Shown in pieces: positions 44,958-46,490 of a stretch of 64,000 nt of DNA. Positions within the stretch are counted from its first letter, which is position 1. Each line of letters begins with the position of its first letter. The notes below the pieces were generated by a model that was given only the letters and a program-made list of their open reading frames with translations, ran no database searches and was not told the origin of the DNA. A program made the translations under genes and the position numbers. The stretch is from Ruania rhizosphaerae (GTDB lineage Bacteria > Actinomycetota > Actinomycetes > Actinomycetales > Beutenbergiaceae), in the NCBI RefSeq assembly GCF_009805705.1, contig NZ_VSMB01000003.1, forward strand, positions 372,001 through 436,000, in the 5' to 3' direction.

Positions 44958-45398
44958 ATGACTGACGTGCTGGTGCTGAACGGCCCCAACCTGGGCCGCC
45001 TGGGGAGTCGCGAGCCGGACGTGTACGGCCATCTGGATCATCCCGGTCTGGCCGGGCGCGTGCTCGCATGGGCCACCGAGCTGGGTTTCGAGGCCGAGGT
45101 GCGTCAGACCGACGACGAGGCCGAGCTGATGGCATGGCTGCACGAAGCGGTCGATACGCGCCGGGATGTGGTGCTGAACCCGGCGGCGTTCACGCACTAC
45201 TCGTACGCGCTGCGGGATGCGGCCGCCCAGGTGACCACCGGCGGGTTGCGCCTGATCGAGGTACATCTGAGCAACCCGGCGTCCCGCGAGCGATTCCGGC
45301 ACACCAGCGTGATCGCGGGCGTCGCCACGGGAACGATCGCGGGTTTCGGTGTCGATTCCTATCGCCTGGCCCTTCAGGCTCTGGCTCATCAAGCCTGA
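44958..45398 (+). CDS. aroQ: type II 3-dehydroquinate dehydratase
   Basis: The 146-residue enzyme dehydrates 3-dehydroquinate. The type II signature is LNGPNLGRLGSREPDVYG, with the catalytic loop arginine and tyrosine. Further blocks are NPAAFTHYSYALRDA and EVHLSNPASRERFRHTS. It starts 3 bases after aroB and closes the aro operon. The genes for DAHP synthase and aroA are not in the window. Confidence 0.96.
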   Translation: MTDVLVLNGPNLGRLGSREPDVYGHLDHPGLAGRVLAWATELGFEAEVRQTDDEAELMAWLHEAVDTRRDVVLNPAAFTHYSYALRDAAAQVTTGGLRLIEVHLSNPASRERFRHTSVIAGVATGTIAGFGVDSYRLALQALAHQA

Positions 45399-45399
45399 C

Positions 45400-45464
45400 A
45401 CCTTGATACTTGGTTATCAAGGTATAGGCCTTGATATGTAGTGATCAACGATCTACCCTTGATT
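45400..45464 (+). promoter_or_regulatory. AT-rich operator array and leaderless promoter of the SatD-like pair
   Basis: CCTTGATA stands at 45401 and 45429 and CCTTGATT at 45457, an exact 28-bp period. The first is half of a perfect 9-bp inverted repeat ACCTTGATA-6 nt-TATCAAGGT (45400-45423). The second has a matching but imperfect right arm (45443-45450) with the same 6-base spacer; the third is a half-site. TTGATA at 45431-45436 also fits a -35 box, 17 bases before TACCCT (45454-45459), itself six bases before ATG 45466. Autoregulation is inferred. Confidence 0.75.
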
Positions 45465-45465
45465 C

Positions 45466-46086
45466 ATGTTCGTCGTGACCGCTGACCAGAATGCCTCCCG
45501 GCGTCGAGGGGACCTCGTTCCCGAGACGCTGGCACACCTGCAGCACATCGGTACCGACCTTGATCTCACGCTGCCGTTCGAGCGCACGGTGGGCGACGAG
45601 ATCCAAGGCGTCCTGGCATCGGCTGCCAGTACTCTCCGGATCGTCCTCGCACTGCATCGCCGCCAGGACTGGAGCGTGGGCATCGGTGTGGGAGAGGTGG
45701 ACCGCCCCCTCGCCGAGAGTTCCCGGGCGTCGTCGGGTGCGGCCTTCCTCCACGCTCGTGAGGCCGTCGAACGCGCACGCGGTCGCACGGTCCCGGTCCC
45801 GATGGCTGTCACCGCCGACGATGACGACGGTGCCGGTGAGGTCGAGGCCCTGCTCCAGCTCCTCGCCTCTGTGGTGCGACGACGCACCACAGCCGGGTGG
45901 GAGGCGATCGACCTGCTGATGGCCACCGGTGGCACCGGGCGCGAGATCGCTGCCGAGCTGGGCATCTCTCCCCAGGCCGTCAGCGACCGGCTGCGGACCG
46001 CGATGTGGGACGAAGAGCGCGCAGTCCACCCCCTCGCGGAGCGCCTCCTGGCATCGTTGGACAAGCCTGCTAAGCAGGCATCATGA
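45466..46086 (+). CDS. SatD-like protein with C-terminal helix-turn-helix
   Basis: The first ~110 of 206 residues resemble the SatD family: an opening FVVTADQNASRRR, TVGDEIQGVL at residues 41-50 and WSVGIGVGEVD, then FLHAREAVERARG. The C-terminal part (about 157-180, GREIAAELGISPQAVSDRLR) is a helix-turn-helix like those of LuxR or sigma region 4. SatD belongs to the acid-tolerance sat locus of Streptococcus; its activity is unclear. The ATG directly follows a -10 box and has no ribosome-binding site. The HTH and the palindromes in its promoter suggest it represses itself. It overlaps the membrane partner by ATGA. Confidence 0.75.
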   Translation: MFVVTADQNASRRRGDLVPETLAHLQHIGTDLDLTLPFERTVGDEIQGVLASAASTLRIVLALHRRQDWSVGIGVGEVDRPLAESSRASSGAAFLHAREAVERARGRTVPVPMAVTADDDDGAGEVEALLQLLASVVRRRTTAGWEAIDLLMATGGTGREIAAELGISPQAVSDRLRTAMWDEERAVHPLAERLLASLDKPAKQAS

Positions 46087-46490
46087 ACGTCGGCGAGATT
46101 CTCCTCACCGTGGCCGTCGCCTGCCTTGCCCTGGGTGTCTCGGCCGGTGCCGGTGCACCTCTGACCGGGTGGTTGCTCGGTCGTATCGCCCGGCGCACCG
46201 AGCCACCAGAGGACCCACCGGCGCTCGAGCCGGAACCGACAGCCGCGGAGGTCCTGCGCGGCGGACTGTGGATCGGGATCCTCGAACGGTTCGCCATCAC
46301 CGGGTGCATCCTCGTCGGCTACCCCGCCGGGATTGCCGTCATCGTCGCCATCAAGGGCCTGGGACGGTTCCGCTCCCTGGACGGCCATGCCAACGTCTCC
46401 GAGCGGTTCCTCGTCGGGACGCTGGCTTCGTATCTGTGGGCCGCCCTCATCGGCCTCGGGGGCTTGGCCCTGTTCCATCTGATCGGCTGA
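46083..46490 (+). CDS. small membrane protein, partner of the SatD-like gene
   Basis: The 135-residue protein has three hydrophobic segments (about 5-27, 62-90 and 108-133) and a Pro/Glu-rich loop between the first two. The blocks ILERF (66-70), KGLGRF (91-96) and SERFLVGTLAS (106-116) match what I recall of membrane proteins encoded beside SatD in other bacteria. The ATGA overlap shows the two are made together. No enzymatic motif is seen. Function is unknown; a sensor or transporter role is only a guess. Confidence 0.72.
   Translation: MNVGEILLTVAVACLALGVSAGAGAPLTGWLLGRIARRTEPPEDPPALEPEPTAAEVLRGGLWIGILERFAITGCILVGYPAGIAVIVAIKGLGRFRSLDGHANVSERFLVGTLASYLWAALIGLGGLALFHLIG

Follow-up and report, generated by a model that had tools for sequence, protein, structure and literature searches.

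Which protein acts on the boxes that precede the satD-like gene of Ruania rhizosphaerae, and to what effect? In the 64,000-nucleotide stretch of DNA analysed here (the window), the 67 bases between aroQ and this gene (45399-45465) have a GC content of 40%, compared with about 63-76% in the surrounding 100-base windows, which agrees with the AT-richness noticed in the first-pass annotation. That annotation had suggested that periodic sites in the gap are bound by the product of the gene that they control.

The box array and the satD-like gene

The CCTTGAT boxes described earlier were found on the forward strand at 45401, 45429 and 45457, and another copy is present on the reverse strand at 45416. 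Counted as half-sites, five boxes had been recognised and are real; a sixth, the ATCAA at 45388 inside the end of aroQ, had been missed. The gap and the last aroQ codons together carry ATCAA at 45388, 45416 and 45444 and TTGAT at 45403, 45431 and 45459. These six half-sites make up three palindromes with a 28-bp period, none of them assigned to a strand. Palindrome 3, the distal one (ATCAAG-N8-CTTGAT, 45388..45407), has one mismatch and overlaps the last aroQ codons. Palindrome 2 (ATCAAGG-N6-CCTTGAT, 45416..45435) is perfect and its right half-site is the -35 element, and the proximal palindrome 1 (45444..45463), with one mismatch, covers the promoter spacer and the end of the -10 element. When the 78 bases in question were shuffled 200,000 times (mononucleotide shuffling), at most two half-sites fell in register, compared with six in the real sequence.

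Both alternations of half-sites, and hence either palindrome unit, exist in the array. The perfect 9-bp inverted repeat ACCTTGATA-N6-TATCAAGGT reported previously is located at 45400-45423, and its second, imperfect copy begins at 45428. The palindrome CCTTGATA-N6-TATCAAGG, which had been taken as the unit, does exist, but the dimer unit is probably ATCAAGG-N6-CCTTGAT, half a period away, because of the outer/inner logic of the recognition helix. The helical repeat of DNA is 10.5 bp, and 28 bp correspond to 2.67 turns, which places neighbouring sites ~120 degrees apart; the period is indeed no exact multiple of the helical repeat, but it is not close to one as had been stated. One extra CCTTGAT lies inside satD (45558-45564), outside the 28-bp register, and the heptamer is over-represented across the whole window (16 copies vs. 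2.65 expected).

The gap had been named after aroQ and efp. The gene order is aroQ, satD, membrane-protein gene, efp, and the gap is that between aroQ (type II dehydroquinase, 44958..45398, forward strand) and satD. The satD-like gene (45466..46086, forward strand) encodes 206 aa with an invariant GDE motif, a C-terminal helix-turn-helix (HTH) and the residues P169, Q170 and D174. The gene for a small hydrophobic (membrane) protein of 135 aa (46083..46490, forward strand) overlaps its end by 4 bases, and a homologue of this partner was found in 91 of 93 regions downstream of satD relatives.

The window protein scored 26.1 bits against Pfam SatD (PF16264), below the gathering cut-off of 29, and is therefore called SatD-like. 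Its residues 33-178 aligned to positions 38-194 of the 211-position profile, taking in the N-terminal domain and the HTH. SatD matches at E<=0.001 were obtained for 40 of 95 members, the window protein among them, and G43, D44 and E45 are invariant in all 95 rows. GDEFQG was visible in six of the eight above-cut-off loci that we read; the remaining two gave no usable frame. HTH matches in the window protein fell at about residues 144-188. HTH_3 did not match it and matched 2 of the 95 members, and a weak KORA match was seen in 7 of the 95. A PDB sequence search with the window protein returned 16 weak matches (E up to 1), which included Cro proteins (E 0.05-0.4) and from which 434 and lambda repressor were absent; the protein may be distantly tied to the 434/lambda repressor family. 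Weak sigma region-4-like HTH matches occurred in 29 of 95 members, and SatD as a sigma-70 family factor was rejected, as no region-2 family was among the matches listed. PADLOC gave no match for the SatD-like or the membrane protein. PHROGs gave weak HTH matches for the former and none for the latter, and the membrane partner matched nothing in Pfam or NCBIfam at E<=0.1.

Conservation of the array and the promoter geometry

The first set comprised 134 satD loci: 95 nearer relatives (one source search kept 80 of 201 candidates) and 39 loci from a class-wide search, in which 60 of 197 genomes had a satD match. For the second set, an order-wide search found matches at E<=1e-30 in 192 of 396 genomes; 101 among the matches listed were hand-picked for spread before the upstream DNA was seen, and 97 were usable. 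After 13 of these were removed at >=90% identity (9 matched first-set loci and 4 one another), 84 held-out loci were left. Excluded rows were duplicate genome copies (L010, L011, L013-L015, L017, L029, L117, L186, L187, L190, L195, L204, L208 and L211), distant SatD loci (L026-L028 and L159-L166), one wrong frame (L138), and loci where the expected start codon was absent (L212, L266, L269 and L277).

An array is present upstream of satD in 180 of the 231 loci of both sets, and in 136 the last TTG lies at -7. Within the first set, an array 5-10 nt from the start reached a score of at least 3 in 104/134 loci (shuffle null 0.6%) and at least 4 in 95/134 (shuffle null 0.03%); with any offset from 3 to 69 allowed, a score of at least 3 was reached in 114/134. 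The register was read from 114 non-redundant loci with an offset of 7, which were selected for arrays, so that peaks in them reflect register and not array frequency. TTG peaked at -35 (112 loci), -7 (88) and -63 (35), and CAA at -20 (88), -48 (84) and -76 (24), with 7 and 8 loci at the respective runner-up positions. The first-pass annotation had expected the boxes to be conserved in relatives that keep the gene pair, and among the 95 nearer loci the array was found in 54/54 with aroQ detected within 1.5 kb upstream. It was also found in 36 of the 41 without detected aroQ, although four of the 95 loci hold <1 kb of upstream DNA and aroQ may be missed there. A role of the boxes as an aroQ element was discarded on account of these 36 loci.

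The predicted promoter in the window is composed of the -35 hexamer TTGATA (45431..45436, forward strand), a 17-bp spacer, the -10 hexamer TACCCT (45454..45459, forward strand; TANNNT type) and 6 nt before the ATG at 45466. The final T of TACCCT doubles as the initial T of the proximal TTGAT, so the operator period equals the distance between the promoter hexamers (28 = 6+17+5). In 100 loci with an offset of 6-8, the hexamer whose final base is the opening T of the last TTG has T at its first position in 88, A at the second in 99 and T at the sixth in 99. A sigma-70 consensus scan of the window, the aroQ–satD gap included, found no promoter, and TACCCT agrees with TATAAT at only 3/6 positions; the promoter call is thus based on conservation and not on a consensus score. 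Shine-Dalgarno-like strings were found in 0/158 loci at offset 6-8, vs. 9/21 at offsets >10. It had been claimed that one box serves as the -35 element and that the start falls on the ATG, and the conserved spacing of -35, -10 and ATG together with the missing Shine-Dalgarno strings gives this claim comparative support. The satD promoter is accordingly predicted to be leaderless, with +1 at the A of the start codon.

The overlap of the array with the -10 hexamer is not universal. Strong arrays lie >10 nt from the assumed start in 14 loci, 11 of which have no TANNNT where the last box lies; for some of the 14 (e.g., L091, L108 and L137), the choice of start codon is uncertain. Arrays at such other distances suggest that the protein dictates the 28-bp period, which the promoter adopted in most lineages.

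Covariation of the recognition helix with the boxes

The bases that flank TTG vary among loci and do so together with the HTH of the adjacent SatD: Q, R or another residue at position 169 goes with TTGT, TTGC or TTGA, K at 174 goes with GTTG, and Q at 170 goes with the TTG core. Arrays were located by their TTG/CAA cores alone, and the flanking bases were taken from exact half-sites at the 114 first-set array loci. For the base after TTG (+1), Q169 was accompanied by T in 32/33 loci (one tie), R169 by C in 12/12, and P169, E169 and A169 by A in 34/35, 23/25 (two ties) and 3/3, respectively; K169 was mixed (4 A, 1 T, 1 tie). For the base before TTG (-1), K174 was accompanied by G in 8/8, Q174 by C in 81/86 (five ties) and D174 by C in 3/3, and A174 was mixed (4 C, 2 G, 5 ties). 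A TTG array was present in the first set in 111/116 loci with Q170, 3/4 with A170, 0/11 with S170 and 0/3 with G170.

A blind scan of all protein columns (142 rows) ranked residue 169 first of 190 columns for base +1 (1.03 bits vs. 0.65 for the next) and residue 174 first of 189 columns for base -1 (0.67 vs. 0.40). The same two positions came first in an earlier scan of 80 non-redundant first-set rows.

The rule was fixed on the first set and then applied to the 84 held-out loci, all <90% identical to it. Among the 52 held-out loci that combine Q170 with an array, the prediction was correct in 47 for base +1 and in 43 for base -1, compared with 29/52 at each position when the commonest base is guessed. 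K174 to G (13/13), Q174 to C (25/25), Q169 to T (14/14) and R169 to C (4/4) were predicted without error, and two new combinations fit the rule: R169 with K174 gave GTTGC (2 loci) and Q169 with K174 gave GTTGT (3 loci). Prediction of base -1 was poor for R174 (1/5), N174 (0/2) and S174 (2/4). Held-out proteins with Q170 lacked a TTG array in 15 of 67 cases; arrays were present in 0/12 loci with S, G or P170 and in 2/5 with A170. The arrays at A170 loci in both sets indicate that Q170 is not strictly needed.

Sorted by half-site, base +1 was as predicted in 80/97 (F0), 92/96 (R0), 120/129 (F1), 91/95 (R1), 45/47 (F2) and 22/32 (R2). The half-sites outside the promoter hexamers (R0, R1 and F2) obey the code, and the distal R2 does so less well.

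The positions involved resemble those of the phage 434/lambda repressor HTH, for which the residue-base contacts of 434 repressor are known: recognition-helix positions 1, 2 and 6 correspond to consecutive parts of a TTG-type half-site, and where the first Gln is lost, the outer base differs. The spacing of the CAA and TTG cores is 9 bp in the 434 operator and 13 bp in the SatD array. The SatD system further differs in that the window protein lacks HTH_3, that its HTH is C-terminal behind a different domain, and in the 28-bp period of the array. Helix-swap work on the 434/lambda repressor HTH is covered in passages of PMC8163980, which we cite beside passages of PMC3317979. For the LacI family, excerpts of Camas et al. 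(2010, PMC2978694) describe a code obtained from local regulation, in which two amino acids covary with two bases. As in those excerpts, covariation in locally regulated genes acts here as a family-wide code; SatD differs from that case in being another family, with three positions, an array of several half-sites and a predicted leaderless promoter. A precedent for reading a recognition code in MerR is given in part of PMC5045206.

Predicted autorepression and alternative readings

The earlier suggestion that the boxes are bound by the product of the gene they control gains comparative support from the covariation, and SatD very probably binds them. We consider it highly likely that the boxes are the SatD operator and that satD and the membrane-protein gene form a leaderless, autorepressed operon. 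SatD would read the half-site [C/G]TTG[A/T/C] through its C-terminal HTH, with residue 169 setting the base after TTG, residue 174 the base before it, and Gln170 going with the TTG core. SatD dimers would bind the palindromes that half-site pairs form at 28-bp repeats, perhaps cooperatively along the array. One half-site coincides with the -35 hexamer and the next starts at the T that closes the -10; bound SatD would therefore cover the -35, the spacer and the -10, exclude RNA polymerase and repress its own gene. Release would follow a signal that may act via either the N-terminal GDE domain or the membrane partner, the latter being a candidate for the signal input.

LexA- and KorA-type proteins are autorepressors with operators over their own promoters, and the predicted SatD operator likewise overlaps the -35 and -10 of its own gene; the alternating half-sites, the 28-bp period that takes in both hexamers and the predicted leaderless start set it apart from these types. 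SatD of the streptococcal sat operon belongs to the same Pfam family, whose model spans the HTH region, and the likeness to the window protein, which is under the cut-off, is through this model. PMC11323703 links satD of S. mutans to tolerance of acid stress and describes the gene as unstudied in the remaining streptococci. No account of SatD as a DNA-binding regulator was found among the papers listed in searches of the open-access PMC literature. The comparison points to a likely DNA-binding and autoregulatory role for a family so far named only for streptococcal acid tolerance, whose recognition helix and boxes appear to have changed together across many actinobacteria, and to a predictive code with natural specificity swaps that is testable by two or three point changes.

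We propose more tentatively, as a possible though doubtful extension, that SatD represents an unrecognised regulator family with a modular three-residue code, which coats the promoter as a helical assembly with a ~120-degree repeat and is released by a membrane-protein signal through the GDE domain. If this were true, operators would be predictable from the SatD protein alone, and recruitment of the array to a second gap in one genus (see below) would hint at a nucleotide- or envelope-related signal.

SatD might instead activate its own promoter from the upstream palindromes. Some loci have half-sites upstream of the -35 (exact F2 core in 47/132, exact R2 core in 32/132), and some arrays lie away from the -10. 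In most array loci, however, half-sites fall on the -35 and on the last part of the -10, as would be expected of a repressor that blocks the promoter, and we regard positive autoregulation as unlikely. SatD may also form loops at the satD promoter.

It is similarly improbable that the boxes are the signal of a wider regulon, with satD as one target among many. The first-pass annotation had proposed a genome scan for further copies of the motif. In the genome of the window, the four-half-site pattern (<=3 mismatches) matched at satD and at one other place, with two mismatches (0 for the reversed control), so a further array was found, but a wide regulon is not supported. The TTG-out palindrome gave 12 matches vs. 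12 in the control. A loose one-palindrome scan did give 180 matches vs. 54 for the reversed pattern, as a wide regulon would predict; these are mostly weak 3-mismatch matches, however, and the excess may be due to codon composition.

Across the family, 20 of 24 genomes contained the four-half-site pattern (<=3 mismatches), each of them at satD; outside satD it occurred at seven places vs. five for the reversed pattern. In 3/3 genomes of genus g5 (L169, L170 and L171, around 1501-1548), a match falls in the gap that separates a thymidine kinase gene from a divergent FAD-linked oxidase gene. These are three of the seven places, and they speak for more than one target; the Pfam TK assignment of the kinase was tested in one of the three. 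The oxidase may be the target, because in one g5 genome the thymidine kinase lies at a distance of 436 nt, beyond another frame. Two g5 species have K174, and by eye the exact half-sites in their gaps are GTTGA (4/4 and 2/2). In the 21 other family genomes, the best thymidine kinase match has no array within 450 upstream bases, and conservation of this second array is confined to the one genus. The remaining four matches do not exceed the five of the reversed-pattern control; one lies before an integrase-like frame, one inside an open frame and two in prophage-looking DNA (one of these in the genome of the window). The two arrays judged by eye to be in prophage-looking DNA have two mismatches each and may be due to chance: that at L003 1487-1534 (G000:C5:28295-28342) is near a terminase-like frame and that at L334 1001-1048 just before a scaffold-like frame. 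The array at L332 1001-1048 has three mismatches and is on the start side of the integrase-like frame.

A different or global regulator could bind the boxes, the link to SatD then being one of shared ancestry only. Box types do track clades, and on trees built from SatD residues 1-160 only, base +1 changed at least 3 times (first tree) or at least 7 times (larger tree) and base -1 no fewer than 9 times. Supported branches provided 5 independent pairs for K174, 3 for Q169 and 2 for R169, of which 4.9, 2.9 and 2.0, respectively, were concordant on average and none ran opposite; with so few independent pairs per trait, no trait alone reached 0.05 in a sign test. We consider such a regulator very unlikely, since the best-tracking of about 190 columns are the recognition-helix positions 169 and 174, no pair runs opposite, and the array stays with satD in most nearer loci without detected aroQ. 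Least credible of all is an ordinary promoter with chance repeats. Any sigma-70-type promoter should have a TTG at -35, but the recurring CAA at -20/-48 and TTG at -7/-63 are no promoter features and covary with SatD, and six half-sites stand in a register where shuffles yield two at most.

Two side observations concern boxes in other lineages. Among the S170 loci of both sets, 2/15 (L240 and L242, recognised by eye) carry TTC in the same register, with CTTCAT/ATGAAG-like boxes upstream of satD, in which the core base may have changed naturally. The sister Actinomyces loci L093 and L099 have Q169 and P169, and the Q169 member combines two TTGT boxes with two of the TTGA type, which may represent a specificity switch under way.
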